A stretch of DNA of 64,000 bases from Afifella marina DSM 2698 (GTDB taxonomy: Bacteria > Pseudomonadota > Alphaproteobacteria > Rhizobiales > Afifellaceae). The notes under the pieces were generated by a model. That model was not told the origin of the DNA. It made no database searches and saw only the letters and a program-made list of their open reading frames with translations. Shown here piece by piece: positions 5,452-39,409 of the stretch; position 1 is the stretch's first letter, and each line of letters opens with the position of its first letter. The stretch is taken from NCBI RefSeq assembly GCF_900102695.1, contig NZ_FMVW01000003.1, forward strand, positions 124,001 through 188,000. Reading direction: 5' to 3'. The translations under genes were made by a program, and so were the position numbers.

Positions 5452-5473
5452 AGATCCGCAGGATTTCGGAGAG

Positions 5474-5501
5474 AAAGGGGCGCTTCGGCGCCCCTTTTTT
5501 T
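5474..5501 (+). terminator. rho-independent terminator of the RTX gene
   Basis: A perfect 7-bp stem GGGGCGC/GCGCCCC (5477-5483 with 5488-5494) closes a UUCG tetraloop and is followed by a run of seven T from 5495. It lies 22 bp after the RTX stop codon. This very strong terminator fits a monocistronic, highly expressed gene. Three A precede the stem, so weak activity on the other strand is possible. Confidence 0.92.
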
Positions 5502-6280: not shown

Positions 6281-6312
6281 CGGCTCGCCGGCGCTTTTAG
6301 TCTCGCGCCGGT

Positions 6313-7083
6313 TCAGGCCTGACGCGCTTGCGCCGGAGCCTTCTTCGCCGCCATCGCGAGCTTCAAGCGGTTCGTCACGGCCCCGCCCAGGAAGGCGAAC
6401 GTCCGGCGTACGGCGCTCGTCGCCTCCGGGTCGTGGCGGGCCGCGCAGAGCGCGGCCATCGCTTCGTTCCGCGGCTCGCCCTTGACGAGCACGCCGAGGC
6501 CAAAGCCATGCAAGAACTCGAACGCATGCGCCCCCTCGGCGATCTCCGCCCAATAGCGGTGCACGCCGAAATCGCCCCTGCGGACATTGGTGTCGTGAAA
6601 GAGGATGACGCCCCCCTCCTTCACCTTCGGCAGCCAGGTCTCATGGTCGTGCGCCACAGCTTCATAGGTATGAAGCCCGTCGATGTGCAGAAGGTCGATA
6701 GCGCCATCCTCGAAATGCGCGAGCGCCTCGTCGAAGCGAGCGCGGATCAAGGTCGCAAAACTGCCGTAGCGATCCTCGTTGTAACGCGCCAGCTCGTTGT
6801 AGATGTTGTCGCCGTAATAGCCGGCGTGCTGGTCGCCCTGCCAGGTGTCGACGGCATGGCAGGCGGTTGCCGTGCCGAGCTGCTTGATCGCCTGATTGAA
6901 GGCGCAGAACGAAATGCCGGTATGCGTGCCGAGTTCGACGAGGCGCTCCGGGCGCAGCTTGTCGATGAGCCAGAAGGCGAAGGGCGTGTGCTCCAACCAG
7001 CCTGAGGCACCGATCCGCTCAGGCACCTGAAAGACGGCCGGCGAATAAAGCCAGGAAAGATCTTCGGTCATAACGTCGTTCAC
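6313..7083 (-). CDS. class I SAM-dependent methyltransferase
   Basis: The 256-residue product carries a motif I ELGTHTGISF (about 50-59) and a late segment DLLHIDGLHTYEAV that matches the Methyltransf_24 type often found next to glycosyltransferases. The DGLHTY and LFHDTNV elements suggest metal-assisted O-methyl transfer. The gene lies 3 bp downstream of the large glycosyltransferase on the same strand, so the two are probably co-transcribed and act on the same glycan. It converges with the CmcI-like gene, leaving only 32 bp between stops. Confidence 0.78.
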   Translation of the reverse strand: MNDVMTEDLSWLYSPAVFQVPERIGASGWLEHTPFAFWLIDKLRPERLVELGTHTGISFCAFNQAIKQLGTATACHAVDTWQGDQHAGYYGDNIYNELARYNEDRYGSFATLIRARFDEALAHFEDGAIDLLHIDGLHTYEAVAHDHETWLPKVKEGGVILFHDTNVRRGDFGVHRYWAEIAEGAHAFEFLHGFGLGVLVKGEPRNEAMAALCAARHDPEATSAVRRTFAFLGGAVTNRLKLAMAAKKAPAQARQA

Positions 7084-16718: not shown

Positions 16719-17437
16719 TGCCCTCCATTCATCTCGACAATGTCAGCCTCGTCTACCGCGTCCGGCACAAGCTGAGCTTTCGCCCGGCGGACCGCAGGCT
16801 GAGCCCGCCCGGCGGCGTCATCGGCGGCCGCGGCACGAAACGCTTCGTCACCGCACTCGATGGCGTCAGCCTCGATCTCAAGGCCGGCGACAGGCTCGGC
16901 CTCGCCGGCCCGAACGGAGCCGGCAAGACGACGCTGCTCAAGGTCATTTATGGCGTCTATGAGCCGAGCGGCGGCGTCGTAAAGATCGACGGGCGCGTCG
17001 ATGCCCTCTTCAACATCACGCTCGGCTTTCGCGGTGAGGCGACCGGCCGGCGCAATGTCGAGCTCCGCGGCCTCATCAACGGCTGGAGCAAGGAAGAGAT
17101 CGCCGAGCGCATGCCCGAGATCATCGAGTTCAGCGAGCTCGGCGAATTCATCGATATGCCGCTCAAGGCCTACAGCCAGGGCATGGCGGCGCGCCTCGCC
17201 TTTTCGGTCGCAACGAGCTTCGAACCCGAAATCCTGGTCATGGACGAGTGGATCGGTGCCGGCGACAAGAGCTTTCAGGACAAGGCGGCGAGCCGCATGA
17301 ACGCGCTTGCCGAAAAGGCCGGCATCATGATCCTTGCCAGCCACAATCCGACGCTCCTGAAGCGCACCTGCAACAAGATCCTGACGCTTGAAAAGGGCAA
17401 GATCAAATCCCTGGAGCCGACGGCGTCGACGGACTGA
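16718..17437 (+). CDS. polysaccharide export ABC transporter ATP-binding protein (KpsT/Wzt-like)
   Basis: The 239-residue ATPase has Walker [15 protein letters not shown] (about 61-74), a signature region YSQGMAARLAFSVATSF and Walker B EILVMDEWIGAGD. The DEWIGAGD form and the SQGM signature are characteristic of the KpsT/Wzt/TagH polysaccharide ABC family. At this length it lacks the C-terminal carbohydrate-binding domain of long Wzt proteins, so export need not depend on terminal glycan modification. It ends the glycan cluster on this strand; an iron-uptake operon follows after 250 bp. Confidence 0.93.
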   Translation: MPSIHLDNVSLVYRVRHKLSFRPADRRLSPPGGVIGGRGTKRFVTALDGVSLDLKAGDRLGLAGPNGAGKTTLLKVIYGVYEPSGGVVKIDGRVDALFNITLGFRGEATGRRNVELRGLINGWSKEEIAERMPEIIEFSELGEFIDMPLKAYSQGMAARLAFSVATSFEPEILVMDEWIGAGDKSFQDKAASRMNALAEKAGIMILASHNPTLLKRTCNKILTLEKGKIKSLEPTASTD

Positions 17438-17690
17438 GAAGCGCGTCCTCCTCGTCCCTTCCGCTCGCGCCACGCACGACGATCGCTCACAACAGGCCGT
17501 ACTCTCATCTGTGGCGGCGTCTCCTGGCATCCCGTGGCCGCGCGGCTGGACGACGATGCACCAGGGCAAAGGGATCGCCTCTCCCACACACGCGACCGTG
17601 ACCGCTCGGCCCCCTTTCGGGACATGCGGGAAGCCATCGTGGATGCTAAGGCTCGGCGCGCCGTCCTATCGCGAACCGAGGCCCAGACCG

Positions 17691-18803
17691 ATGAACGACG
17701 AGCCCCCGATCTCGCCACAGGTCCTGCCGCCGATCCTGGAAATCTGCGGTGTCACGCGCCGGTTCGGCGGGGTACCAGCGCTCGACAACGTCTCGCTCAA
17801 GGTCAGGGCCGGCGAGATCGTCGCGCTTCTCGGGCATTCGGGCTGCGGAAAATCGACTTTATTGCGCATCATCGCCGGCGTTGAGGACATCGACGGCGGC
17901 CAGGTCGCACTGGGAAGCCAGGTCGTGGTCGGCAGCGATGTTTTCGTCGAGCCGGAGATCCGTAACGTCGGAATGATGTTTCAGGATTATGCGCTGTTTC
18001 CGCATCTGACGGCGCGCCAGAATATCGGCTTCGGCCTGAAGAAGATGCCACGCAAGCGGGCTGCGGCCCGCGTCGCGGCGATCATCGAGCGGCTCAACCT
18101 CGAAAGCTTGAGCGAACGCTATCCGCATATGATGTCGGGCGGCGAACAGCAGCGCGTCGCGCTGGCGCGGGCGCTCGCGCCCCAGCCTCACATTCTCTTG
18201 ATGGACGAGCCTTTCTCCAATCTCGACCGCGGATTGCGCGAGAGGATCCGGAGGGAAACGGTCGACGTCTTGCGCGCGCTCGGCACGACGGCGATCATCG
18301 TGACGCACGATGCCGAAGAGGCTCTGGCGCTCGGCGACCGCGTTGTTCTCATGGACAAGGGCCGGATCGTGGAAGAGGGCTCCGGAGAGGCAATCTACCG
18401 GACGCCGCGCACCGCGGATGCGGCCCTTTTCTTCTCACACGTCAACATCGTACCGGCGCAGCCCTCGGGGGAGTGGCTTGAAAGCCCGATCGGCCGGTTC
18501 CCGGATCGTCGCGCGCGGACCGCCCCGGTGCGGCTCTTCATCAGACCGCAGGCCGTTGCGCTTGCAGAGCAGGGCATCCCGGCGCGCGTCAGCGGTCGCA
18601 TGCTCCTGGGCGAGATCGAGGAATTGATGCTGACGGTCGAGACGCTCAACGAACCTCTGGTCATGCGGACGACCACACGCAGCGAAGTCGAGATCGGCGA
18701 TGACGTCCGGGTCAGTTTCGATACCGGCAGCATTCTCGTCTGCGAGGGCGATCATACGAAGACACGCGCCCTCACCCCGCTCGTCGATGCGGGCGGGGTT
18801 TGA
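17691..18803 (+). CDS. fbpC: ferric iron ABC transporter ATP-binding protein
   Basis: The 370-residue protein has Walker A GHSGCGKSTLLRII (about 48-61), signature MSGGEQQRVALARAL, Walker B ILLMDEPFSNLD and the switch His in VTHDAEEALALGD. A C-terminal regulatory TOBE-like domain (from about 265) completes the FbpC/PotA type architecture. It powers Fe3+ import from the periplasm. The ATG at 17691 gives a normal length; an in-frame extension upstream is Arg/Ser-rich and unlikely to be translated. The gene lies before fbpA and fbpB, separated from fbpA by 257 bp with its own regulatory site, so the order C-A-B differs from the common fbpABC arrangement. Confidence 0.85.
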   Translation: MNDEPPISPQVLPPILEICGVTRRFGGVPALDNVSLKVRAGEIVALLGHSGCGKSTLLRIIAGVEDIDGGQVALGSQVVVGSDVFVEPEIRNVGMMFQDYALFPHLTARQNIGFGLKKMPRKRAAARVAAIIERLNLESLSERYPHMMSGGEQQRVALARALAPQPHILLMDEPFSNLDRGLRERIRRETVDVLRALGTTAIIVTHDAEEALALGDRVVLMDKGRIVEEGSGEAIYRTPRTADAALFFSHVNIVPAQPSGEWLESPIGRFPDRRARTAPVRLFIRPQAVALAEQGIPARVSGRMLLGEIEELMLTVETLNEPLVMRTTTRSEVEIGDDVRVSFDTGSILVCEGDHTKTRALTPLVDAGGV

Positions 18804-18855
18804 GGAAACCAACCTCCGCGGGCCGCACTCGCAGACGACCAAAAACCGGGCGCCC

Positions 18856-18933
18856 GATGGGCGGCCCATCTGAGAGGCGGCGTGCGGCGCCTGCCGGCAC
18901 GGCCCTCCACACGTAGACACGGCCCTCCACACG
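18856..18933 (+). repeat. hairpin and tandem 16-bp direct repeat between fbpC and fbpA
   Basis: A GATGGGC-G-GCCCATC hairpin occupies 18856-18870, 50 bp after fbpC, and may slow transcription, though no T run follows. A 16-bp direct repeat then appears twice, CACGGCCCTCCACACG at 18898-18913 and again at 18918-18933, with a 20-bp period. Function is unknown; a duplicated regulator site or replication slippage are both possible. Confidence 0.5.
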
Positions 18934-18986
18934 CAACTGTGACCGGCATATCCGGGCGATCGTCGGATCAACCCGGCCGCAAATGT

Positions 18987-19001
18987 TGACTCTATTTGTC
19001 A
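18987..19001 (+). promoter_or_regulatory. candidate Iron-Rhodo box (RirA-type site) upstream of fbpA
   Basis: The sequence TGA-CTCTATTTG-TCA (TGA-N9-TCA) matches the core of the Iron-Rhodo box bound by RirA in Rhizobiales. It overlaps a TTGACT element at 18986-18991 that could be the -35 of the fbpA promoter, and lies 60 bp before the fbpA start. The position over the promoter of an iron-uptake gene supports the reading, but the core is short enough to occur by chance. Confidence 0.5.
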
Positions 19002-19060
19002 CCTATGAATTAAGGCGCCCCTGGATGCGCTGTCATCCGGTCCGCAGACGGAGAGGAAAC

Positions 19061-20083
19061 ATGACGCCTGCCTTGAAGATCGCCATCGGTTTCATCGCGC
19101 TGAGCGCCGCCGTGCCGGCAGCCGCGGAGGAAGTGAACATCTACACGACACGGGAGCCGGGGCTGATCCAGCCCATTCTCGATGCCTATACCGCCGAGAC
19201 CGGTACGACGGTGAATACGGTGTTCCTTCAGGATGGCCTCATCGAGCGGGTCAAGGCGGAGGGCGAAAGCTCACCCGCCGATATTCTGATGACGGTGGAT
19301 TTCGGGGCTTTGATCGATCTCGTCGATGCCGGGCTCACGCAACCCGTCGAATCGGAGATTCTTCGTTCGGCCATTCCGGAGAGCTTGCGCGACCCGCAGG
19401 GCAATTGGTTCGCACTCTCGGGACGCGCGCGCATCGTCTACGCGGCGCGTGATCTCGACATCGATTCCATCACCTATGAGGAGCTCGCCGACGAGAAATG
19501 GCGCGGGCGCCTGTGCATCCGCTCCGGCCAGCACCCTTACAATACGGCCCTCTTCGCCGCCTATATCGCCCATCACGGTGAAGAGGCCGCGGAAGAATGG
19601 TTGCGCGGCGTGAAGGCGAACCAGGCCCGCCCGGCAGCCGGCGGCGACCGTGACGGCGCGCGCGATATTGCCGCCGGCATTTGCGATATCGCTATCGGCA
19701 ATTCCTACTATGTCGGCCGCATGAAAAGCGGCGGCGGCGGTGCCGAACAGGTCGAATGGGGTGATGCGATCAAGGTTCTGATCCCGACCTTCGAGGATGG
19801 CGGAACGCATGTGAACATCACCGGCGCCAGCGTTGCGGCACACGCACCCAATCGCGAGGAAGCCACCGAGCTCCTGGAGTATCTCGTCTCCGACGAAGCT
19901 CAGAAGCTCTATGCCGAAGCCAATTTCGAGCATCCGATCACCGCGACGGCGGAGCCGCATCCGATCGTTGCCTCCTTCGGAGAGGTCGTCCCCGACACCA
20001 TCTCTCTCGGGCAGGTCCTGCCTCACCGCACAGTGGCGAGCGAGATGGTCGACCGTTTGAATTTCGACACCTTTGAGAACTGA
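19061..20083 (+). CDS. fbpA: ferric iron ABC transporter substrate-binding protein
   Basis: The 340-residue protein starts with a clear signal peptide (MTPALKIAIGFIALSAAVPA, cleaved near residue 22) and continues EEVNIYTTREPGLIQPIL, the typical start of class II/III Fe3+-binding periplasmic proteins. The tandem tyrosines in IGNSYYVGRM are the conserved iron ligands of the FbpA/FutA group. It should capture ferric iron in the periplasm and deliver it to FbpB/FbpC. The ATG at 19061 follows GAGAGGAAAC, a good RBS, which rejects an in-frame extension upstream. It is followed 32 bp later by the permease. Control by iron through the TGA-N9-TCA site upstream is inferred. Confidence 0.93.
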   Translation: MTPALKIAIGFIALSAAVPAAAEEVNIYTTREPGLIQPILDAYTAETGTTVNTVFLQDGLIERVKAEGESSPADILMTVDFGALIDLVDAGLTQPVESEILRSAIPESLRDPQGNWFALSGRARIVYAARDLDIDSITYEELADEKWRGRLCIRSGQHPYNTALFAAYIAHHGEEAAEEWLRGVKANQARPAAGGDRDGARDIAAGICDIAIGNSYYVGRMKSGGGGAEQVEWGDAIKVLIPTFEDGGTHVNITGASVAAHAPNREEATELLEYLVSDEAQKLYAEANFEHPITATAEPHPIVASFGEVVPDTISLGQVLPHRTVASEMVDRLNFDTFEN

Positions 20084-20115
20084 GCGAGGGAGCCCGCCTC
20101 CCACGCGCGTTCCCC

Positions 20116-21873
20116 ATGAGTGACCTGGCTCTCAGGCCCCTGCGCAGACGCGCACGGCTCATCCCGAGCGGATGGGCCGTATTCGCGTTCGGGGTCGCCG
20201 TTTTCGCCGTCCTGCCGATCGTGGTCATCCTCACGACCGCCATGGAGAACACCGGCGCACTCTGGTCCCACATCGTCGCCGGGATTCTGCCGCAGGCCAC
20301 CCGCACGACGCTGACGCTTCTCGTCGGGACCGCCGTCCTCGTCACCGTCATCGGGACGGGATGCGCCTGGCTCGTCACGGCGTACCGGTTCCGCGGCCGA
20401 GCCTTCCTGGAATGGGGGCTGCTCCTGCCCCTCGCTGTGCCGACTTACATCATGGCCTATGCCTATATGGATGTGCTGAGCCCGCTCGGCCTCATTCAAG
20501 GCGTGATCCGCGATCTTCTCGGCTATTCCAGTCCACGCGAATTCCGGCTGCCCGACATCCGTGCCATGTGGGGGGCGATCACCCTCTTCGGCTTCGTCCT
20601 CTACCCTTACGTCTATCTGACCACCCGCATGATGTTCCTCACGCAGGCCGCCAACCTCGTGGAGGCCTCGCGCACATTGGGGACGAGCCGGTCCGCCGTG
20701 TTCTGGCGGGTGGCATTGCCGCTCGCACGTCCGGCGATCGCCGTCGGCGTCAGCCTGGCCCTCATGGAAACGCTGAATGACATCGGCGCATCGCAGTTTC
20801 TCGGCGTGCGGACGCTGACGGCGTCGGTCTATACGACCTGGATCGTCCGCAACGACCTTGCAGGCGCAACCCAGATCGCCAGCGCCATGCTCGTCTTCGT
20901 GGTTTTGCTGATCTGGCTTGAGCGCTTTGCGCGGCGGCGCCAGCGCTATGCCAGCAATGCCCAGCGGTCGCGGGCGATGGCTGCACGTCCTCTCACCGGC
21001 GCGAAAGGCGCCGTCGCTTTCGCCGTCGGCTTTCTCCCGATCTTCATCGGCTTCATCGGACCCGCTTCCTATCTTCTGGGCGCTGCCATCCGGCGCATCG
21101 AATTCGCCGGTATCTCACCCCAGATCGTGCGGGCGACGCTGAACACGGTCACGGTCTCGGCCGTGGCCACATTGTTGGTTCTCGTTGCGGGCTTCGTCGT
21201 GGCGTATGCGAGCCGCATCCGTCCGGGGCCGTGGACCGGGAGCTTTTTGCGCCTCTCTACCCTCGGCTATGCCGTGCCGGGTACAGTTCTGGCGATCGGC
21301 ATCCTCATTCCCGTCGCGGCGCTTGATCGCTTCATCGATCGCAGCGCCAGCGAGTGGTTCGGTCTGTCGACGGGCCTCTTGTTCATGGGATCCGGGTGCG
21401 CCCTGGTTTACGCTTACACGGCCCGCTTCCTCGCCATCTCCTCGGGAGGCATAGAGGCGGGCCTCAGCCGCATCGCGATCTCCTATGATCATGCAGCCCG
21501 CACGCTCGGCCACACATCGACCGGCGCGCTTTTGAAAGTGCACCTGCCCCTGTCGCGCACAGCACTGACGGCCGCAGGCCTTCTCGTCTTCGTCGATTGC
21601 ATGAAGGAGCTGCCCGCGACGCTTCTCCTGCGCCCGCTCAACTTCGAAAGCCTTTCAACCCTGCTTTACGGTGAGGCCGCCCGCGGCACCTATGAGGACG
21701 CCGCGCTCGCCGCCCTGGTGATCGTGGCGATCGGGATGCTGCCGGTGACGTTGCTGGCGCGGGTCGGAACCTCATCATCAGATCCTGTCGCTTTCACCGA
21801 CGGCGCGCAGGAAAGCCGCTCTGGCCGAGGGATCTTTTGGAAGACCTCCGGCCGGAGGTCGGCCTCGACATGA
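20116..21873 (+). CDS. fbpB: ferric iron ABC transporter permease
   Basis: This 585-residue inner-membrane protein is a duplicated permease with about twelve hydrophobic segments. Two EAA-type loops are visible, EASRTLGTSRSAVFWRVALP (about 192-211) and the later YDHAARTLGHTSTGALLKVH, each of which docks one ATPase. This double-permease layout is standard for FbpB/SfuB iron transporters. It should form the channel for Fe3+ released by FbpA. It lies directly after fbpA with a 32-bp gap and is surely co-transcribed with it. No TonB-dependent receptor is nearby. Confidence 0.92.
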   Translation: MSDLALRPLRRRARLIPSGWAVFAFGVAVFAVLPIVVILTTAMENTGALWSHIVAGILPQATRTTLTLLVGTAVLVTVIGTGCAWLVTAYRFRGRAFLEWGLLLPLAVPTYIMAYAYMDVLSPLGLIQGVIRDLLGYSSPREFRLPDIRAMWGAITLFGFVLYPYVYLTTRMMFLTQAANLVEASRTLGTSRSAVFWRVALPLARPAIAVGVSLALMETLNDIGASQFLGVRTLTASVYTTWIVRNDLAGATQIASAMLVFVVLLIWLERFARRRQRYASNAQRSRAMAARPLTGAKGAVAFAVGFLPIFIGFIGPASYLLGAAIRRIEFAGISPQIVRATLNTVTVSAVATLLVLVAGFVVAYASRIRPGPWTGSFLRLSTLGYAVPGTVLAIGILIPVAALDRFIDRSASEWFGLSTGLLFMGSGCALVYAYTARFLAISSGGIEAGLSRIAISYDHAARTLGHTSTGALLKVHLPLSRTALTAAGLLVFVDCMKELPATLLLRPLNFESLSTLLYGEAARGTYEDAALAALVIVAIGMLPVTLLARVGTSSSDPVAFTDGAQESRSGRGIFWKTSGRRSAST

Positions 21874-22025
21874 CGAGCGTGCGGAAACGGCGGGCGATGG
21901 AAGCGAGCTGCCGAGGCGAGTGGAGGTTGAGCCAACGAGGCACGCAATAAACCGCTCCGTGCGTTGAGGCCCTGCCCGCCCGCTTCCGAAGAGAGGGCAG
22001 GCATAAGCCAGAAGCAAAGTGCGCG

Positions 22026-22664
22026 TCACTCCGCCGGTTTGATAACGGCGCGCCAATGGCGATGAAGCGCCGCGACGTCGCCGCTCGTCAGAATCGGCAT
22101 CGCCTCCTTCAAAGCAGCGTCCTCCCAATCCCACCAGCGAAGTTCGAGGAGCTGCGCGATGGCCGTCCCGTCAAATCGCTTGCGGATGACCTTGGCCGGA
22201 TTGCCGCCGACGATGGCGTAAGATTCGACGTCCTTAGTCACCAAAGCCCTGGTTCCGATGACAGCGCCATCTCCGACCGTAACGCCCGGCATGATGACCG
22301 CCTCGGACCCGATCCACACATCGTTGCCGATCACCGTGTCGCCGGCCGGCCGATATCCGTTCTCCGCTCCTGCGAAGGTCGGAACATCAGACATCCAATA
22401 GAACGGGAACGTGCTGATCCAATCGTTTCTGTGGCCCTGGTTGCCGGCCATGATGAAGGCCGCGCCCGAACCGATCGAACAGAATGAACCGATGATGAGC
22501 CGGTCCACACCTTCATCCGGCAAGAGAAAGCGGGCGCATTCGTCGAAGCCGTGCCCGTGATAATAGCCGGAATAATAGCTGTAGCGGCCGACTTGGATGT
22601 TCGGGTTGGTGACGAGACGATCAAGAGTGATGCCCCTGAAGGGGCTTTCAAAGACATTTGCCAT
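22026..22664 (-). CDS. CatB-type O-acetyltransferase (left-handed beta-helix)
   Basis: The 212-residue product belongs to the xenobiotic/virginiamycin acetyltransferase family. It has hexapeptide repeats ([31 protein letters not shown]), the active-site region [13 protein letters not shown] with His78, and the C-terminal [13 protein letters not shown]. Members acetylate chloramphenicol or streptogramins using acetyl-CoA; many chromosomal versions may have other hydroxyl acceptors. The 212-residue size and the H-x6-TFPF pattern match type B chloramphenicol acetyltransferases. It stands alone, with no neighbouring mobile element, so an old chromosomal gene is likelier than acquired resistance. 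Whether it confers resistance cannot be told from sequence. Confidence 0.82.
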
Positions 22665-22857
22665 AGCAAGTACCGTAGGCTCGCAAGCCGCATATGCGGC
22701 AGAGCTTCACCCGCAAATCTGCAGGCGAAAATGGGCAAGGGATCTCGGAGATCGCTTGCCAAGCACTTCTGACGTCACAGACGCGGAAGCGATATGCGGG
22801 TGGTACAATCTGCGGACTTCATGTCGTCATCATGCTGCGCAAATCGGCGCGCAAAAA

Positions 22858-22947
22858 TGGCGGAGGGAGAGGGATTCGAACCCTCGAGACGGTTGCCCGC
22901 CTACACGCGTTCCAGGCGTGCGCCTTCGACCACTCGGCCATCCCTCC
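22858..22947 (-). tRNA. tRNA-Ser (anticodon GGA)
   Basis: Read on the minus strand the 90-base sequence folds as a class II tRNA. The acceptor stem GGAGGGA pairs with TCCCTCC, followed by G and an encoded CCA. An anticodon stem CACGC/GCGTG encloses loop CTGGAAC with anticodon GGA, a long variable arm follows as expected for serine, and the T arm has GGTTCGAATCC. It decodes UCC/UCU. I see no integrase or duplicated 3' end beside it, so it has not served as an attachment site here. Confidence 0.96.
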
Positions 22948-26454: not shown

Positions 26455-27750
26455 CTACTGGCAGATGCGGTAGCCGTTGCTCCGTTCCTTCAGATCGAAA
26501 TGGAAATGCGTGGCATGGGCGGCATTGGCGCCAGGCCCGAGGACTGTGGTGAAATGCTCGCACGCCCCTTCGCGGATCCGCTTCTGAAACCGGCTCGCGG
26601 CGGCCTCGGCATCATCGCGCTCTTTCACGGTAATCGGCGAACGGCTCTTGAAGGTGATGGCGCTGACGTCGATCGCATTGGCGAGCGCGTGCTCTGAGAT
26701 CTTCGCACCCGGACGATTGTAGCGCGTACGGCACACATAGCCGGAGGCCTGGGTCACGCCGCGCAATTCGGCGCCATCGAGAAGCTCGTCGGCGGCGGGC
26801 TTCACGACCTCCTTCAGCCAGATGGCGAGCGCTTCTGTCACCGCGCAATTGAGCGTGACGGGAGGAGAGATCGCAACGCCTGGGGCAAGTTCCTCGACCT
26901 CGATCGGATGGGCGATGTCGCAGGCGCCGCCATCGGCGATCGCAGGCTCCTCCCTGAACTCCACACCGAGAGCTCTGAGGCGCCAGACGCATTGGCGAAA
27001 ATCCTCCGCCGCAGCCGCCTTTGCCGCCTCGTCCTCTTCCGACGCCTTTGTGGCACCTTCGGAAGCATCCTCGTCCGCTTCACCCTCCGGCGCCGCAGGG
27101 CGCTCAGCAGGCCCCTCAGACGGGTTCTTGGCCGGCACCTGCGATGGGGGCTGAGCAATCAGCGGCTCCACCGGCTCTGGCGCATCCTCCGGGCGAGCCT
27201 CGGGAATGGACGGCGCCGCTTTGGCGGCATCCTCGTCCGCGGGAGCATCACCCGTCTCGCCCGGCTTCTCGCCCGCCTTCGCGTCCTGAGGTGTCTCACC
27301 TTGGCCTTCGGTGCCCGTCTCAGCTTCAGATGCGCCCGTATCCTTCGGAGCTTGATCTGCTTGCGCGTCGCCTGGAGATGGCACAGCCGGTCCATCCTCG
27401 TTTTCGGGCTCGGGCGCGTCTTCCGTCGCCGGCGATGCAGATCCGTCGTCCGTCTCTTTCTCGTCCGCCCTATCCGCCTCACCCTGTGGCCGGATATCCG
27501 GCACAGGTGGGGCCGGGCCCGCGTCCTCGCTCGATCCTTCCGGCCGCGGCTTCGGTGTCGCGGGGGCGCCGTCCGTCTTGCCCGCGGGAGAAGGTGAAGC
27601 GGACGGCTGAGCCGCCGCGGCAGTCCCTTCCGCATCCGCAGCCTCCGCCGGGCGCGGCTGAGGCTTCAGCGGGGGTGTCTCGGCCCCCGCTGTGCCGACG
27701 CCTAGCGCCAGCATCACCACGAAACCCCAGACAGGAAGATGGCTAGTCAA
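26455..27750 (-). CDS. extensin-like domain protein with long acidic low-complexity region
   Basis: The 431-residue protein has a signal peptide, then about 220 residues of Pro/Glu/Ala/Asp-rich low complexity, and a C-terminal extensin-like domain (PF06904 type) from about residue 245. That domain contains the family cysteines (QCVWRL, GYVCRTRYN, GACEHFTT) and the segments ISEHALANAIDVS and ATHFHFDLKE. The H-x6-D plus HFHFD pattern resembles LAS metallopeptidases such as VanY/MepA, so a cell-wall peptidase role is plausible; this is inference. Its start overlaps the end of the L,D-transpeptidase gene by 8 bp, so the two are translationally coupled and both likely act in the periplasm on peptidoglycan. 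Confidence 0.78.
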   Translation of the reverse strand: MTSHLPVWGFVVMLALGVGTAGAETPPLKPQPRPAEAADAEGTAAAAQPSASPSPAGKTDGAPATPKPRPEGSSEDAGPAPPVPDIRPQGEADRADEKETDDGSASPATEDAPEPENEDGPAVPSPGDAQADQAPKDTGASEAETGTEGQGETPQDAKAGEKPGETGDAPADEDAAKAAPSIPEARPEDAPEPVEPLIAQPPSQVPAKNPSEGPAERPAAPEGEADEDASEGATKASEEDEAAKAAAAEDFRQCVWRLRALGVEFREEPAIADGGACDIAHPIEVEELAPGVAISPPVTLNCAVTEALAIWLKEVVKPAADELLDGAELRGVTQASGYVCRTRYNRPGAKISEHALANAIDVSAITFKSRSPITVKERDDAEAAASRFQKRIREGACEHFTTVLGPGANAAHATHFHFDLKERSNGYRICQ

Positions 27751-29320: not shown

Positions 29321-29497
29321 ATGCTGAAATGGGCCCTTATCTTTGCCGTGATCGCGGTTATCGCTGGCGCACTCGGCTTCAGCGGCATCGCTGCGGGCGC
29401 TGCGACGATCGCGCGCTTCCTGTTCTTCATCTTCCTGGTCATCGCCGTCATCTTCTTCGTCCTGATGCTTCTGGGCGTCGGCGCCGTGGCGGTTTAA
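29321..29497 (+). CDS. DUF1328 small membrane protein (YtjA family)
   Basis: This 58-residue peptide starts [20 protein letters not shown] and continues [20 protein letters not shown], matching the DUF1328/YtjA family of two-helix inner-membrane peptides found in many proteobacteria. The first helix spans about 5-25 and the second about 33-57. The ATG at 29321 lies 8 bases after a CGGAG-like site. A strong terminator follows at 29554-29583, so it is a single-gene unit, divergent from the L,D-transpeptidase. Related genes are often stress induced, but the function is unknown. Confidence 0.88.
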
Positions 29498-29553: not shown

Positions 29554-29583
29554 AAAGGGCTCTGCCGCGGCAGAGCCCTTTTT
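29554..29583 (+). terminator. rho-independent terminator of the DUF1328 gene
   Basis: AAAGGGCTCTGC, a CGCG loop and GCAGAGCCCTTT form a 12-bp perfect stem followed by more T. It lies 57 bp after the DUF1328 stop. The A run before and T run after make it potentially bidirectional, so it may also stop transcription of the nuclease gene arriving from the right. Confidence 0.92.
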
Positions 29584-29601
29584 GTTGCCGGCGTCGGCGT
29601 T

Positions 29602-29648
29602 TGGCGCCTAACCGCCGATGATGTCGCCGCCGTTCGGGTGCAACACCT
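29602..29648 (-). repeat. left copy of a 47-bp duplicated SDR gene 3' end
   Basis: This 47-bp stretch matches 30733-30779 at 43 of 47 positions in the same orientation. Read on the minus strand it encodes VLHPNGGDIIGG followed by a TAG, the last residues of an SDR like the one at 30739-31599, which ends VLHPNGGAVVGG. No rest of an SDR gene is attached: it stops 6 bp from the nuclease stop codon. It is therefore a displaced gene end, and the distal boundary of an insertion. Confidence 0.88.
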
Positions 29649-29654
29649 AACGCG

Positions 29655-30617
29655 TCAATCGCGGTCGGGCGCGTCCGAGGGGCGGGCTGCCTCATACCAT
29701 TCGAGGAGACGCTTCATCGCGTCGAAAGCTTCCCTGGCAATCAGCTCATTAAAGCCATCCGATTGCCGCATTTCCGGCACCCTAAGGGAGATCTGGAGGC
29801 CGTCCTTCTTACTTCCGTAGTCTTCCGCGATTCCGTCTTGCAGCCGGATTTGGAGCAAGCGAGCTTTCTCTTTCTCCTCAATAGGCGAAAAGACAAGATC
29901 GACCCGTCCGGACGGGTCGTGCACCGACGTCCACAGGCGATGTCTCAGCCAAACCCCAGCCGGCATCATGCGGTGGCGAATTGGCTCGATCCATGAATCG
30001 CCATCGTAATACGCGCGTCGCAACCACGGAAAGGTGAGGCCCGCGCTTTGGTTGGCCCAGAATGCTTCGGCGAACTTCAAATACTGGGACCGAAGGCTGT
30101 GCATCGCGGGATCTGGGACCTGCACACCCGACGCGTTTTTCTTTGCGATCGCCCGTTGGATGATTTTTCGGCGATATGCGCGCCGCACGGGATCGGCAGC
30201 CTCAATGAGCTCAGCAACAGCTTCCAGGGGGATCGCGCAATCATAAAGATCCCGTTCGCCTCCGTAGGCCGCGGGGGCGACCAGGATGCAGTAAACCGCG
30301 TCCCAGTCTCCACCGCGCAACCGTTGAGCATACCGACGATAGCGTTCTGCCTGACGGACTCCCGGCTGAGCCGTTATCTTGTCTTCAATGAGGAGCGCGA
30401 TCTGCTTGCTTTGTGCGCTCCCCTTTACCAGCAAATCCCCGAAGCCCTCACCGCCGAGGCTCGGCTCCGGAATAGCCTCTACAACATGGAAACCTGGCGC
30501 CAAGAGGCCGCATTCCGCCAAGAACCTCTCTCCGAACGTTAGATCGCAACAGAACTCTTCCGCCAGGAGATGGTCGATCTCGACCTCCTGGGCAGATTTG
30601 CGCAATATCTCCGTCAT
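29655..30617 (-). CDS. PD-(D/E)XK superfamily nuclease, lone inserted gene
   Basis: The 320-residue protein has a PD-(D/E)XK type core: GFGDLLV with Asp61, then LLIEDKI with Glu78 and Lys80, followed by the helix QAERYRRYAQRL with the supporting Gln89. This is the catalytic pattern of restriction-like nucleases. The C-terminal 200 residues are unlike any domain I know and may bind DNA or a partner. There is no methyltransferase or specificity gene beside it. Its GC content (about 55%) is clearly below that of its neighbours, and it is bounded on both sides by a 47-bp duplicated SDR gene end, indicating horizontal acquisition. I took the ATG at 30617; a TTG at 30638 in the same frame is an alternative. 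Confidence 0.75.
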   Translation of the reverse strand: MTEILRKSAQEVEIDHLLAEEFCCDLTFGERFLAECGLLAPGFHVVEAIPEPSLGGEGFGDLLVKGSAQSKQIALLIEDKITAQPGVRQAERYRRYAQRLRGGDWDAVYCILVAPAAYGGERDLYDCAIPLEAVAELIEAADPVRRAYRRKIIQRAIAKKNASGVQVPDPAMHSLRSQYLKFAEAFWANQSAGLTFPWLRRAYYDGDSWIEPIRHRMMPAGVWLRHRLWTSVHDPSGRVDLVFSPIEEKEKARLLQIRLQDGIAEDYGSKKDGLQISLRVPEMRQSDGFNELIAREAFDAMKRLLEWYEAARPSDAPDRD

Positions 30618-30732
30618 CGTCTTCCGGCTGGCTTCCAATTCCGCACTTTTGATGAAAAGCCTCGGGATTTGTTGCTCGTCGTCAAGGTCTGCTATGACGC
30701 AACTTCCGGCGGAAATGTGCGGGCTACATCCA

Positions 30733-30779
30733 TGGCGCCTAACCGCCGACGACGGCGCCGCCGTTCGGGTGCAGCACCT
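30733..30779 (-). repeat. right copy of the 47-bp duplicated SDR gene 3' end
   Basis: This is the functional 3' end of the SDR gene (stop at 30739-30741) and matches 29602-29648 at 43 of 47 positions. The four differences include changes that turn GGAVVGG into GGDIIGG, so the two copies have different histories, as expected if the insertion brought its own version of the gene end and thereby kept the SDR reading frame intact. Confidence 0.88.
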
Positions 30780-31599
30780 GGCCGGTCATGTAGGAGGAAT
30801 CGGCGCAGGCGAGGAAGAGCACCGCGGGCGCCACTTCGTTCGGTTGCCCGGCACGGCCCATCGGCTGGTTGGCCCCGAAATTCGCCACCTTGTCGGGCGG
30901 AAAGCTCGCCGGAATGAGCGGCGTCCAGATCGGGCCCGGCGCTACGCCGTTCACACGGATGCCCTTGTCGGCAAGGTTCTTCGACAACGAGCGGGTGAGC
31001 GCCAGGATGGCCCCCTTGGTCGAGGCGTAATCCATCAAAACCGGCTGGCCGCGATAGGCGGTGATCGACGTCAGATTGACGATCGCATCACCCTTCTTCA
31101 GATGCGGCAGAGCCGCCTGCGTGATGAAGAAGATGCCGAAAATGTTCGTGCGGAAGGTGCGCGTCAGCTGGGCTTCGGAGATCTCTTCGAGCTCCTCGGC
31201 CATATGCTGCTCGCCGGCATCGTTGACGAGAACATCGAGGCGGTCGAATTCTGACACCGTCTTAGCGACGACCTCGTCGCAAAAGCTCTTGTCGCCGATA
31301 TCGCCGCGGAAGGCGATCGCCTTGCCGCCCTCCTCTTCGATCAACCGGCGGGTCTTTTCGGCGTCTTCGTCCTTGTCGCGATAAACGAAGGCGATTTTGG
31401 CACCCTCGCGCGCAAAGAGGATCGATGTCGCACGTCCAATGCCCGAATCGCCGCCGGTGATGAGCGCGACCTTATCCTTGAGCCGTCCAGAGCCCGGATA
31501 ACGGGGCATGTAATCCGGCTCGGGCATCATCTTGTGCTCGTCGCCCGGCTGATGTTCCTGCGCCTGCGGCGGACGCTCGGTGTCGTGCCTGTCGCTCAT
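30739..31599 (-). CDS. SDR family oxidoreductase (YghA-like)
   Basis: The 286-residue enzyme has a 40-residue hydrophilic N-terminal extension, then the cofactor loop TGGDSGIGR (about 48-56), VNDAG in place of NNAG, and the catalytic set Ser178, Tyr191 and Lys195 in YASTKG. The conserved C-terminal GQVLHPNGG is present. It belongs to the group of YghA/YdaD general-stress SDRs using NADP(H), with aldehydes or ketones as likely substrates. Its 3' end is duplicated on the far side of the nuclease gene at 29602-29648, so the last 14 or so codons may derive from the inserted element. It is otherwise a single-gene unit, divergent from a LysE exporter gene. Confidence 0.9.
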   Translation of the reverse strand: MSDRHDTERPPQAQEHQPGDEHKMMPEPDYMPRYPGSGRLKDKVALITGGDSGIGRATSILFAREGAKIAFVYRDKDEDAEKTRRLIEEEGGKAIAFRGDIGDKSFCDEVVAKTVSEFDRLDVLVNDAGEQHMAEELEEISEAQLTRTFRTNIFGIFFITQAALPHLKKGDAIVNLTSITAYRGQPVLMDYASTKGAILALTRSLSKNLADKGIRVNGVAPGPIWTPLIPASFPPDKVANFGANQPMGRAGQPNEVAPAVLFLACADSSYMTGQVLHPNGGAVVGG

Positions 31600-34191: not shown

Positions 34192-34359
34192 GGAGCGCGC
34201 ATGTAGCATGGCCGCAGGCCGGCGCAAGCACGGATCATGCGGCATCGCCCTCCTGCCGCAGAAATTGCGCAGCGCTGACGGCGTCTTTCGTCGCAGGAGG
34301 AGTTGAGGGGGCCCCGGTTTAACCGCAGATTTAAGCCTCGCTGCGTAGTCTTTCCAGCG

Positions 34360-35589
34360 ATGCCGCAATTCACCATCCTCAACGACCGCCGCTTCTGGCT
34401 CTTCTTCGCCTTTATGATGTGCCAGTTCGGCTATCCGCTTGGTGCGTTCAATGAGTGGTGGACGCAAACCGGGGTCTTCGGCAACAACAACCATCCGGGT
34501 GGTGGCGACTTCATCAACTTCTGGGTCGCCTCTCGCGCAGCCTTGGAAGGGCATGCCAGCGCACTGTTCGACCCGCAAAACTACTCAGCGCTCCTGACGG
34601 AGCAGTTTGGAACGGATTACGGTTATCGCTGGCTTTATCCGCCTCATTTCCTTCTTTTAATTCTGCCGCTAGGGCTTTTCCCGTACGGCCTTGCCTTTGC
34701 ACTTTTCATGGGCGCGACACTTCTCCTCTATCTCGTCATTGCACGACGGCTATGGGGAGGATGGGAGATCGTCGGCTGGCTGCTCATAGCGCCCGTCACG
34801 GCGCTTGGGCTGCTCAACGGGCAGACCTGCTTCCTCGTCGGCGCCCTCTTCATTGGCGGCGTCTATCTGTGGGACGACCGACCCGTGCTCGCCGGCATCT
34901 TCCTCGGGTTTCTCACAGTGAAGCCCCAGTTCGGAGTGCTCATTCCGTTCGTGCTCCTCATCGAGCGCCGCTGGTGGGTGATCGGGACCGCCATGGCCAC
35001 CGCGGGATGCTTGATCGGCGCCTCTGTGATCGCTTTCGGCGTGGAACCCTGGAGGGAATTCTTCGTCAGCCCTCTCAGCGCAAGCAACGATGTGCTTCTC
35101 GCCGATCGCACCGACTTGATGGGCATCCACCTGGCCCCCTTCGGCGCGGCGCGCTTCCTCGGTTTCTCGCCCGCCACCGCCAGCATCGTCCAGCTGGGCT
35201 TCTCCCTGTTCGCCGTGGGAGCTCTCAGCGCTACGCACCGTCTGCAGGCGCGGCCTGACACGAAGGTGGCGATGCTCATCGCAGCGACCTACCTCTTTAT
35301 TCCGTATGTGCTCTTCTATGATCTAGCCGCCCCGACCTTTTCGGCCTTATCGCTATATTTCGGGCGCCAGCAACAGAATGCGCCGGGCCTAGCCTTCTCC
35401 ATCCTCTTGGTCGGGGTGGGCACCCTTTCATTCATTAACGGAGCAACCACGCTCATCGGCATTCCTCTCGGTCCCGCGGTCTTCGCAATCCTATGTGCTG
35501 CACTGATTGGGCGCGCTTACCAGGAAGGCTGCGAGGCTGCGCAACCACTGCCCAGGGCGCCAGTCCCGCGGGGACGCGCCATTGCGTGA
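34360..35589 (+). CDS. GT87/DUF2029-like polytopic membrane protein, copy 1
   Basis: The 409-residue protein starts [18 protein letters not shown] and has about ten hydrophobic segments. Family-like blocks are [17 protein letters not shown] (about 47-63), [20 protein letters not shown] (about 89-108), [20 protein letters not shown] (about 188-207) and [13 protein letters not shown] (about 320-332). GT87 members (PimE-like) are polyprenyl-phosphate-dependent mannosyl or other glycosyltransferases acting at the outer face of the inner membrane; the acidic GGGD loop fits a catalytic Asp. It is the first of four adjacent paralogs and ends 4 bp before the next. Confidence 0.78.
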
Positions 35590-35593
35590 ACCT

Positions 35594-36868
35594 ATGCCCC
35601 GATTCACAATCCTCAACGATCGCCGCTTCTGGCTATTTTTTGCTTTTGCGCTGACGCTGTTGGGTTTTCCCCGCGGCATTCTGCTCGATTGGATCTATCG
35701 CACAGGCTCGCTTACTGACCTCAATCACCCAGGCGGAGCAGACTTCGTCACCTTTTGGGTGGCCGCCAAGGGGGCCCTCTCCGGCCATGCCGGAAATCTC
35801 TACGATCCGTCGTTCTTTTCGCGAGCCATGGTCGATCAATTCGGGGAGGATTTCGACATGCGGTGGCTCTATCCGCCGCATTTCCTTCTCTTGATATTTC
35901 CGCTTGGCGCTTTGCCCTACTCGGTCGCCTACACGGCCTTTCAAGCGATCGGCCTCGTCGCTTTCGCCTCACTTGGGATATTGGCCCCACGACGGTGCGA
36001 AATGTCTTTGTGGCTGGTCTTCGCACCGACATCCATCTTGTGCCTGCTGGTCGGGCAAACGGCACTTCTGGTCGGCGCGCTCTCCATTGGCGCGATCTTC
36101 CTTTGGGATCGCAAGCCCATTCTGGCTGGGGTTTTTCTCGGTCTTTTGACGATCAAACCCCAATTTGGTGTCCTCATCCCGCTCGTGCTTCTCATAGAGC
36201 GGCGGTGGCTTGTAATTGCTAGCGCGACGTTGACGACCTGCGCATTGGTCGCTTTCGCAGGTCTGGTCTTTGGTTTTGATGCCTGGCGAGACTTCATCTT
36301 GAATATCGCGGGTCCGCAAGGCGACGTACTCCGGGCCAACGCAAAGACATTTCTCGAAATCCAGATGAGCGTTTACGGCGGAATGCGTCTTGCGGGCTTT
36401 GAGGCGGATACCGCCATGCTCACGCAGATCGGGGTTGGGTCGGCAGCAATAATTGCCCTGATCACAACTCTGCGCTCAGCGGCCAGACGGTGCACCAAGC
36501 TCGCTATGCTGGTCACGTCGACATATCTGTGCGTTCCCTACATATTGTTTTACGATCTTGCGGCACCGACCTTCATCGCGGTCTGGCTCTATCTCGGCTA
36601 TGGCCTTGAGAAGGGGGCGGGTCCTGTCCTTTCCATACTGCTCGTGCTCGTGGCGACCCTGTCCTTCGTCAACGGCCTGACTGTCGCGATGGGGTTCAGC
36701 GCGGGGCCGTTGGTGTTTGTGGCGCTTGCCACGGCGCTCTTTTTCCGCGCCCGCGAGGAGAGTGCCCGCGCCCCAGAACATCAGCGCAGTCCTCAACCGG
36801 ACGAGACGACGCCACGAGCCGGCGACCGGCCTGTCCTCGCCAGAGAGAGTGCGGCGTCATGGCGTTGA
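35594..36868 (+). CDS. GT87/DUF2029-like polytopic membrane protein, copy 2
   Basis: This 424-residue paralog starts [18 protein letters not shown], nearly identical to copy 1 at the N terminus, with the loop NHPGGADFVTFWVAAK (the second Gly replaced by Ala), [20 protein letters not shown] and [20 protein letters not shown]. The middle is clearly diverged from copies 3 and 4, and the DNA is a little AT-richer (about 55% GC in parts). It lies 4 bp after copy 1 and overlaps the start of copy 3, which implies a polycistronic message. The charged C-terminal tail of about 30 residues is unique to this copy. Confidence 0.77.
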   Translation: MPRFTILNDRRFWLFFAFALTLLGFPRGILLDWIYRTGSLTDLNHPGGADFVTFWVAAKGALSGHAGNLYDPSFFSRAMVDQFGEDFDMRWLYPPHFLLLIFPLGALPYSVAYTAFQAIGLVAFASLGILAPRRCEMSLWLVFAPTSILCLLVGQTALLVGALSIGAIFLWDRKPILAGVFLGLLTIKPQFGVLIPLVLLIERRWLVIASATLTTCALVAFAGLVFGFDAWRDFILNIAGPQGDVLRANAKTFLEIQMSVYGGMRLAGFEADTAMLTQIGVGSAAIIALITTLRSAARRCTKLAMLVTSTYLCVPYILFYDLAAPTFIAVWLYLGYGLEKGAGPVLSILLVLVATLSFVNGLTVAMGFSAGPLVFVALATALFFRAREESARAPEHQRSPQPDETTPRAGDRPVLARESAASWR

Positions 36869-38151
36869 AACACTCGCAGGCACATGCACACACTCTGAGG
36901 CCGGAGCTGGCGAGCATGCAATTCACGATCCTCAATGACCGGCGATTCTGGCTGCTCTTTGCTTTCGCGATCACGCTGCTCGGCTTTCCCTATGGCATCC
37001 TGACGGACTGGATCACTCGCAGCGGCGACGTTTATTCGACGAACCATCCGGGCGGCGGCGATTTCGTCGTCTTCTACGTCGCCTCAGAGATGATCCTGCA
37101 GGGCCATTTCCGGGACCTCTACGACCCAGCCAAATTCTCGCAGACGATCATCGATCGTTACGGCAGCGACTACGAAATGCGCTGGCTTTACCCGCCGCAT
37201 TTCCTGTTCTTCATCGCCCCGATCGCCAAGTTGCCTTATCTCGCGGCCTGGGCGGGCTTCATGGCAGCGAGCTTCGCCTTTCTGGCCGCAATCGGCCGCA
37301 TCGTCTGGGGAAAGCGCGACATCGTCTTCTGGCTTCTCGTCGCCCCCTCGACATTTCTCGGCGTGCTTCTCGGCCAAATGAGTTTTCTTGTCGGCGGCCT
37401 TATGATCGGCTCCATTTTTCTCTGGGATCGGAAGCCCATCCTCGCCGGCATTCTCCTCGGGCTTCTCACCATCAAACCGCAATACGGCGTCTTGATCCCG
37501 CTTGTTCTCCTCCTGGAGCGGCGGTGGCTCGTGATCGGCGTCGCTTCGGCAACAGCCCTCGTCTTGATCGGGGCCTCCATTCTCGTCTTCGGCACCGCCC
37601 CTTGGCACGCCTTCCTGTTCGGCATGGACGGGGCCAATTCCGACATCCTGACGACAGCGAGCAAGAAGTTCCTCGGGCTGCAAATGAGCGTCTTCGGTTC
37701 TGCTCGGCTCCTCGGGGCCGATCTTGCGACGGCAGCCTTGCTCCAGGGTTTGAGCGCGCTCCTTGCCGTCGTCGCGCTCGTCGCCACGACGCTGTCGGGC
37801 GCACGACGTGACACGAAGATCGCCATGCTCGTCACGGCGACCTATCTCGTCTCGCCCTATGTGCTCTTCTATGACCTCGTCGCCCCGACCTTTGTGGCGC
37901 TGTGGCTTTATTTCGGCAAAGAGCGCGAGCAACCTCCCGGCATCCTCTTCTCTGCCCTTCTCATCTTCGTTGCCGTCCTCTCCTTCGTGAACGGCGCCAC
38001 CGTGGCGTTTGGATTCGGCAGCGGACCGATCGCCTTCTTCGCCCTGGCGATCGCGCTTCTACTGCGTGGGCGGGCGGAAACCGGGCGCAACGGTCGATCG
38101 CTTCGCGGCCCTCTCATCAAGGGCAAATGCCGTGAGGCAAACGCTGCATGA
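36859..38151 (+). CDS. GT87/DUF2029-like polytopic membrane protein, copy 3
   Basis: The 430-residue product begins with 19 residues absent from the paralogs, then [20 protein letters not shown]. The ATG at 36859 overlaps the stop of copy 2 by 10 bp and has GAGAG upstream; an alternative ATG at 36916 would match the length of the other copies. [56 protein letters not shown] and [13 protein letters not shown] are the shared blocks. It carries a basic C-terminal tail (LRGPLIKGKCREANAA). Function as for copy 1; acceptor and donor unknown. Confidence 0.77.
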   Translation: MALKHSQAHAHTLRPELASMQFTILNDRRFWLLFAFAITLLGFPYGILTDWITRSGDVYSTNHPGGGDFVVFYVASEMILQGHFRDLYDPAKFSQTIIDRYGSDYEMRWLYPPHFLFFIAPIAKLPYLAAWAGFMAASFAFLAAIGRIVWGKRDIVFWLLVAPSTFLGVLLGQMSFLVGGLMIGSIFLWDRKPILAGILLGLLTIKPQYGVLIPLVLLLERRWLVIGVASATALVLIGASILVFGTAPWHAFLFGMDGANSDILTTASKKFLGLQMSVFGSARLLGADLATAALLQGLSALLAVVALVATTLSGARRDTKIAMLVTATYLVSPYVLFYDLVAPTFVALWLYFGKEREQPPGILFSALLIFVAVLSFVNGATVAFGFGSGPIAFFALAIALLLRGRAETGRNGRSLRGPLIKGKCREANAA

Positions 38152-38158
38152 GGCAGGG

Positions 38159-39409
38159 ATGAAGGCCGCGACACCAGCTGAGCCGCGACGAGCGTGGGCA
38201 TCCGGCTTCACGCTCCTCAACGATCGGCGTTTCTGGCTCGCTTTTGCGTTCCTCGTGACCCTTCTCGGTTTTCCGCGCGGCATGCTGACGGGGTGGATTA
38301 CCCGTACGGGCGAGGTCTATTCCACAACACATCCAGGCGGCGGGGACTTCATCGTCTTCTGGATCGCCTCGCGCATGCTTCTCGAAGGCCATCTCTCGGG
38401 TCTTTTCGATCCAAGCCAGTTCTCGCGTTACATCATCGACCTTTATGGCTCGGATTTCGGTGTTCGCTGGCTCTATCCGCCGCATTTTCTCTTCCTTCTC
38501 GCGCCGCTCGGCCTCTTTCCCTACCTCGTCGCCTATGGCCTCTTCATGGGCGGCAGCCTCGCAGCGTTCCTCTTCGTGGCGGCCCGTGTCTGGGGCGACA
38601 GGAGCGTCGCCCTCTGGCTTTTGATCGCGCCCGTCACGGCGCTCGGAATCCTCATCGGCCAGACCTGCTTCATCGTGGGAGCGCTTTTTGTCGCCGCCAT
38701 CTATCTCTGGGACGAAAGGCCAATCCTCGCCGGAATTCTCCTCGGCCTCCTGACCGTCAAACCGCAGTTCGGCGTTCTCATCCCGCTCGTGCTTCTCTTG
38801 GAGCGCCGCTTCCTCGTCATCGCGGTGGCCAGCGTTACAGCGACGGCACTCATCGGCGCCTCGATCCTCGCCTTCGGAATCGAACCGTGGAGAGCCTTCC
38901 TCTTTGGGCTGCAGGATCCGACGGGCGCGATCCTGCTGAGCGAACGCGACGCCTTCCTGAGCGTGCAGATGACCGTCTACGGTGCTGCGCGGTATTTCGG
39001 CCTCAGTTTCGCGGCGGCCGCCGGCCTGCAAGGGATGAGTGCGCTCTTTGCGGTCGGCTCCCTCGTCTACGTGACATTGTCGAGCGCCCGGCGCGACACC
39101 AAAGCAGCAATGCTGGTGACGGCCACCTATCTGACGCTGCCCTACGTGCTTTACTACGACCTCGCAGCTCCGACCTTCGTGGCGCTCTGGCTCTATTTCG
39201 GCCACGGCCGACGCGCTCGGCCAGGGATCGCCGTCTCGGCCCTCCTGGTGGGGGTCGCCTCGATCTCCTTCATCAACGGCGCGGCCACCACTTTGTGGCA
39301 CGTCAACGTCGCGCCGGTCGCTTTTCTAGCACTCGCGGTTTTCCTCATTTGGAGCGTTGGACGCGAAACGTCCCCAGGCTTTGACCGATTTGAGAACGCG
39401 CGGCCCTGA
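38159..39409 (+). CDS. GT87/DUF2029-like polytopic membrane protein, copy 4
   Basis: The 416-residue fourth paralog has [18 protein letters not shown] from about residue 17, then [56 protein letters not shown] and [13 protein letters not shown]. It starts 8 bp after copy 3 at an ATG preceded by AGGCAGGG. The four copies therefore form one tight operon of 5 kb. There is no other glycan gene beside them. After its stop only a terminator for the opposite strand and the convergent ompW gene follow. Confidence 0.77.
   Translation: MKAATPAEPRRAWASGFTLLNDRRFWLAFAFLVTLLGFPRGMLTGWITRTGEVYSTTHPGGGDFIVFWIASRMLLEGHLSGLFDPSQFSRYIIDLYGSDFGVRWLYPPHFLFLLAPLGLFPYLVAYGLFMGGSLAAFLFVAARVWGDRSVALWLLIAPVTALGILIGQTCFIVGALFVAAIYLWDERPILAGILLGLLTVKPQFGVLIPLVLLLERRFLVIAVASVTATALIGASILAFGIEPWRAFLFGLQDPTGAILLSERDAFLSVQMTVYGAARYFGLSFAAAAGLQGMSALFAVGSLVYVTLSSARRDTKAAMLVTATYLTLPYVLYYDLAAPTFVALWLYFGHGRRARPGIAVSALLVGVASISFINGAATTLWHVNVAPVAFLALAVFLIWSVGRETSPGFDRFENARP

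Follow-up and report, generated by a model that had tools for sequence, protein, structure and literature searches.

A Single Nuclease-like Gene Inserted at the Duplicated 3' End of an SDR Gene in Afifella marina

The Locus and Its Repeat Pair

The window analysed here is a stretch of 64,000 nucleotides (64 kb) from Afifella marina DSM 2698, and the genes that concern us lie on its minus strand. An intact gene for an SDR oxidoreductase of 286 aa occupies 30739–31599 (minus strand); its product hits adh_short_C2 (8.9e-59) and falls just short of the curated cut-off of the PRK06701 subfamily model (8.7e-121; 402.7 of 413 bits). The gene is closed by an SDR-end copy at 30733–30779 (minus strand; AVVGG, TAGGCGCC), which consists of the final 41 nt of the gene and 6 nt beyond. 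A 115-bp stretch (30618–30732, minus strand) leads from this copy to the start of a gene for a nuclease-like protein of 320 aa (29655–30617, minus strand), and 6 bp past the stop codon of that gene comes a second, orphan SDR-end copy of 47 bp (29602–29648, minus strand), whose right part is nearest to the SDR end of the congener G001 (DIIGG, TAGGCGCC). Next is a terminator-like hairpin with a 12-bp stem (29554–29581, minus strand), which in congeners stands 3' of the SDR gene and here lies downstream of the inserted nuclease, and then a DUF1328 gene on the plus strand (29321–29497; Pfam PF07043, E 1.2e-13), which by synteny, too, is the gene found next after the SDR gene, in convergent orientation, in congeners.

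A repeat search of the 64-kb window returned the two SDR ends as a direct repeat of 56 nt (29602–29657 and 30733–30788) with 86% identity, and BLAST of both flanks returned 47 nt (29602–29648 and 30733–30779) with 91.5% identity, or 43/47, at E ~4e-14. Both copies contain the same 18-bp core, at 29625–29642 in the orphan and at 30756–30773 in the intact gene (minus strand in each case). The inserted segment is 1,131 bp long, holds one gene and is tightly packed, with no other gene debris. Its GC content is 0.583 compared with 0.633 for the window, and GC3 is 0.664 in the nuclease gene and 0.815 in the SDR gene. The first-pass annotation, made from the letters of the sequence, had described a 47-bp repeat flanking one nuclease gene of lower GC, with the right copy ending the intact SDR gene and the left copy standing alone; the repeat search, BLAST, GC figures, coordinates and a comparison of the window with itself agree with each part of that description.

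Empty Sites in the Genus

We compared the window genome (G000) with four further members of the genus (G001–G004). An orthologue of the SDR gene is present in G001, G003 and G004 (94, 93 and 81% aa identity, respectively), and G002 was counted as lacking one because its best match reaches only E 8e-38. The check that had been set beforehand, namely whether relatives would have one SDR end running directly into the DUF1328 gene, came out as predicted: all three SDR-bearing congeners have a single SDR end, then a short stretch, a terminator-like stem-loop and the DUF1328 gene in convergent orientation, and no nuclease gene. A search of the four congeners gave no match to the nuclease, which is thus found in one of five genus members, its own genome counted.

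Three segments of more than 250 bp in the window align to neither G001 nor G003 (5121–5474, 27217–27634 and 29597–30733), with the last 4 kb, 3' of 60145, compared with G003 only, as the G001 contig apparently ends there. A long flanking repeat accompanies only 29597–30733, while 5121–5474 has a 21-nt flank match at E 0.015. The insertion is thus real: one acquired gene sits behind the SDR gene, together with a second copy of that gene's coding end, and the target gene is intact.

Other parts of the window also vary or repeat. Four adjacent ORFs of 428–466 aa on the plus strand (34303–39409) repeat one another at 71–85% identity, and two stretches within this tandem family, 34414–34767 and 34971–36550, have no alignment to G003; the family may change copy number. 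A 5.4-kb stretch (17427–22779) is unaligned to G001 and aligned to G003; it ends just before a tRNA-Ser gene (22858–22947), and some of its ORFs look transporter-like by eye. Diverged short direct repeats of 28–120 bp (74–96%) are packed into less than 1 kb at 4234–5061.

The Nuclease and Its Likely Role

The nuclease ORF on the minus strand runs over 29655–30638 if read from a TTG, or over 29655–30617 if read from an ATG. Because close homologues start near the residue that matches the ATG at 30617, we take the gene as 29655–30617, and this ATG is probably the start.

The protein has no match in Pfam or NCBIfam at E ≤ 0.1. Among seven family members, PDDEXK_4 is matched in four (best E 0.0061; 0.15 for the window protein), and the PADLOC models for PDC-S26, in which the S presumably means single-gene, match all seven at E ≤ 0.1 (best 4.3e-5; 0.015 for the window protein). 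In the alignment, D61, E78, K80, Q89 and Y93 are invariant in 7/7 sequences; we take D61 and E78-x-K80 to be the PD-(D/E)XK site and Q89-xxx-Y93 to be a RecB-like Q motif. A structure model from the single sequence reached a pLDDT of 34.6 and one from two sequences 56.8; from residue 26 the latter shows a helix, three strands, a helix and a strand, an order that fits the PD-(D/E)XK core. This low-confidence two-sequence model has no PDB match at E ≤ 0.001, and a search of solved structures gave a single match, at E 0.65. The PD-(D/E)XK label that the gene had been given at first thus stands on a conserved motif and weak profile matches, although no strong family match accompanies them. The protein is probably a stand-alone PD-(D/E)XK-type enzyme, and its most likely role, as judged from sequence, is defensive, as a single-gene defence against phages or plasmids. 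It has no homologue in phages and no PHROGs match, and none of the 87 stretches in viral contigs that fit a pattern encodes a relative of it.

Transcription of the nuclease probably depends on its neighbour. A simple consensus scan, which would miss other kinds of promoter, found no sigma-70-like promoter. The hairpin at 29554–29581 scores z −3.18 over a 66-nt stretch, and inspection by eye shows a comparable stem in G001, G003 and G004; terminator-like sites in the region number 2 against 2.6 expected from shuffles, which is not above expectation. Since no promoter was seen and the SDR gene's own terminator lies behind the nuclease, we infer that the nuclease would be read as the trailing cistron of the SDR transcript.

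Relatives of the Nuclease and Their Surroundings

The nuclease family is rare, with a match at E ≤ 0.001 in 3/199 genomes (own included) and, for the family profile at E ≤ 1e-10, in 4/397 genomes of the order and 13/385 drawn from the class, the own genome being counted in both. The nearest relatives are found in Pseudaminobacter arsenicus (56%) and on three Sinorhizobium plasmids (54–56%); more distant ones lie on Bradyrhizobium plasmids (one at 33%, three at 28%) and in the genomes G461 (49% by local alignment) and G093 (43%). Seven plasmids in all have a nuclease match. These relatives have differing surroundings. In G093, the sole genome of its genus, the nuclease sits between genes read as zwf and soxG. 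In S. terangae it follows a gene annotated as GIY-YIG and belongs to a cluster that also has UvrD-type and DGQHR genes; the same DNA recurs in S. fredii, whereas S. medicae has other gene surroundings and shares the nuclease alone, besides one 50-bp match far downstream. Between the S. terangae and S. fredii plasmids (L040 and L041, about 5998–6928), the nuclease is 93% identical and the neighbouring genes 85%, and an S. mexicanum plasmid that carries both the DGQHR and the GIY-YIG gene is absent from the seven nuclease-matching plasmids; the two observations together support exchange of the nuclease on its own. In Pseudaminobacter arsenicus (scaffold63, L034), the nuclease (2438–3403) lies ~250 bp from two ORFs (9–2191) that resemble an IS21-type transposase pair by eye.

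We also scanned the flanks of homologues for repeats, taking flanks of at most about 1.5 kb for L051–L064; the L034 sequence ends 315 bp past the gene, and the gene of L057 was not located. At the 22 other homologue loci there is no spanning gene-end repeat at E ≤ 0.01, save a self-match artefact at L057. The suggestion that homologues, too, might stand at duplicated gene ends finds no support, with 0/22 other loci doing so (some have short flanks and one was mislocated). As the relatives lie at unrelated loci, and those scanned lack such repeats, the duplication belongs to the event in the window and is no general feature of the family.

Which Copy Is Native

The two 56-nt copies, aligned with the congeners, differ at 8 positions, which are sorted by side around the identical 18-bp core. 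The orphan is unlike all of G001, G003 and G004 at columns 5, 6, 8, 9 and 15, and these five departures are bunched on the nuclease side. At columns 34, 36 and 39 it is the intact copy that departs from G001, while the orphan equals G001; over columns 33–55 the orphan has 1 difference from G001 and the intact copy 4. The intact gene accordingly ends in AVVGG, and the orphan reads DIIGG, like G001. The right-hand comparison depends on G001, which alone among the congeners has the same stop codon and following bases; with G003 (AVIGG) as the yardstick, two of the three right-hand positions point the opposite way, and with G004 (DIVGG), one. Since the SDR tail varies within the genus (DII, AVI, DIV), ordinary mutation could account for the three right-hand changes.

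Of the 16 amino-acid differences between the SDR proteins of the window and G001, 3 lie within the final 8 codons (hypergeometric P 0.007), but so do 2 of 10 between G001 and G003 (P 0.03), and 1 of 19 between the window and G003. The total differences along the SDR gene give no clear imported tract. Both copies have GGTTAGGCGCC in common, which is found in full in none of the three congeners, and any donor must therefore be very close to the window species. The switch of sides across the core is what a crossover with an imported, imperfect SDR end would leave, and we regard it as suggestive only.

Recombinases and Attachment Sites

No recombinase is encoded within the insert. The genome has four PF00589 (Phage_integrase) matches, of which, by eye, the two above the cut-off resemble XerC and XerD and the other, weaker pair resembles integrases of the phage type. 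A 151-bp query covering the nuclease upstream region and the SDR end matched the genome at its own position, at the orphan and, partially (30 bp), at one further place. The TGYTGCACCCGAACGGCGGC pattern occurs in no viral contig scanned; the 16-nt core occurs in 78 viral contigs, the best of which agrees with the 56-mer at 36/56 bases. When the intact end was searched against plasmids and phages, the matches listed were SDR genes or chance matches.

The insert had been taken at first for a minimal, one-gene mobile island. The empty sites bear out the insertion at the SDR 3' end, but mobility of the insert in its own right does not follow, given that it holds no recombinase, that the homologue loci scanned show no such repeat and that no viral contig scanned has a matching site.

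Route of Insertion

The route would be one of two known kinds of event, a pattern known from restriction genes and from genomic islands. With a probability of about one half, we favour the acquisition of a one-gene nuclease cassette, placed between the SDR stop codon and its terminator, that brought an imperfect SDR end of its own. The cassette would have arrived carrying its own SDR-end copy, and a crossover within the 18-bp core would have passed the final codons of the cassette (AVVGG) to the SDR gene, the original end, DIIGG, becoming the orphan, as in gene-end (att-type) islands. The recombinase may have been supplied in trans or since lost, or short homology may have been used.

We place this att-type route only slightly above insertion with a long target duplication, a serious if somewhat less probable competitor, in which the SDR end would have suffered a staggered break that took up the nuclease gene, ~47 bp would have been doubled by fill-in or replication, and the copies would then have drifted apart. 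Passages of PMC3874152 and PMC3031569 describe such insertions for restriction-modification genes, with duplications of the order of 100 bp. The empty site in G001, G003 and G004 and the 47-bp target repeat around the insert fit this route, as do the presence of GGTTAGGCGCC in both copies and the lack of an att-bearing element in the viral contigs scanned. What speaks against it is the distribution of the differences: of the four in the 47-bp repeat, three change an amino acid of the functional copy, at places where the unselected orphan equals G001, and the orphan's own five changes cluster on the nuclease side instead of being spread.

It is less probable again, though overlapping with the cassette reading, that an integrase-bearing island entered the SDR end and then lost all but the nuclease, in the manner of a CIME. 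The att-like anatomy would be the same, and elements that keep attL and attR without integration and transfer genes are described in part of PMC5704250; however, the insert is tight (6 bp on one side and 115 bp on the other) and holds no remains of other genes, and the SDR end is no visible hotspot. Among 35 SDR loci (~1.5 kb downstream, a short flank, and many paralogues), a gene-end repeat at E < 0.001 occurs in the window only; weaker ones (E 0.003–0.036) occur at L079, L069, L007, L008 and L011. A 60-mer from the orphan end has matches in 10/150 relatives' genomes, its own included, and outside the genus these are short (22–46 nt).

A free-standing homing endonuclease, which would cut empty SDR ends and spread through their repair, would also fit a nuclease gene at a conserved gene end whose alleles in relatives are empty; we consider it improbable, as homologues sit at unrelated sites (in G093, after a GIY-YIG gene on two Sinorhizobium plasmids, and near the IS21-type-like pair in Pseudaminobacter). 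Least probable by far is an old tandem SDR duplication whose second copy was mostly deleted around the nuclease: the orphan is indeed SDR-derived, but the terminator and DUF1328 gene follow the SDR end in three congeners with no second SDR gene, the similarity between the copies stops within 47–56 bp, the nuclease is unmatched in four congeners, and the window compared with itself has no further SDR-like repeat beside the left copy, so that the larger degraded SDR gene that the first-pass annotation had named as an alternative left no sign.

The favoured reading of a cassette with an imported SDR end can be carried one step further, to a self-contained one-gene defence cassette that travels with its target gene's end, restores the host gene on entry, is transcribed by the host gene and relies on a recombinase in trans; we think this fuller version doubtful.

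Comparison with Known Systems

Among the matches listed from the open-access literature (titles and abstract openings), no paper describes a cassette with a lone nuclease gene at an SDR end that is duplicated, and PDC-S26 is named in no paper of the open-access literature searched. The locus is a clean, small case, with empty sites in congeners, of a solitary nuclease gene that settles without harm to its target gene. Nobusato 2000 and Furuta 2010 are reportedly the primary reports on how restriction-modification genes insert with a long duplication of the target.

The earlier statement that no described system has this form was too strong, since parts of two publications describe the insertion of restriction-modification genes with ~100 bp target duplications (PMC3874152) and CIME-type elements (PMC5704250). 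The long duplications at restriction-modification genes are of variable length (PMC3874152, PMC3031569), single components of such systems appear mobile according to PMC3874152, and one H. pylori cluster of the long-target-duplication type is mentioned in a passage of PMC4978471. With these insertions the window shares a nuclease without a transposase of its own, a long direct target duplication and an empty allele in relatives; it differs in having one gene, a 47-bp duplication and copies that differ by side around an identical core. No methyltransferase adjoins the window nuclease, whose neighbours are the SDR and DUF1328 genes.

PDC stands for phage defence candidate in PADLOC-DB, according to an excerpt of PMC11514479. 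The window family resembles PDC-S26 in the stretch around D, E-x-K and QxxxY and in its single-gene setting, whereas the scores are weak (E 0.015 for the window protein, 4.3e-5 for the best family member) and the activity is a predicted one.

Islands at gene 3' ends and CIMEs, as portrayed in part of PMC5704250, have in common with the window an intact host gene on one side, a displaced end on the other and an identical core, whereas the window insert measures only 1.1 kb, is without an integrase and has no known donor element. If the SDR end was imported, the insert would be a very small cargo unit of the att type, a hint that single defence genes can move as gene-end cassettes without a large island around them.
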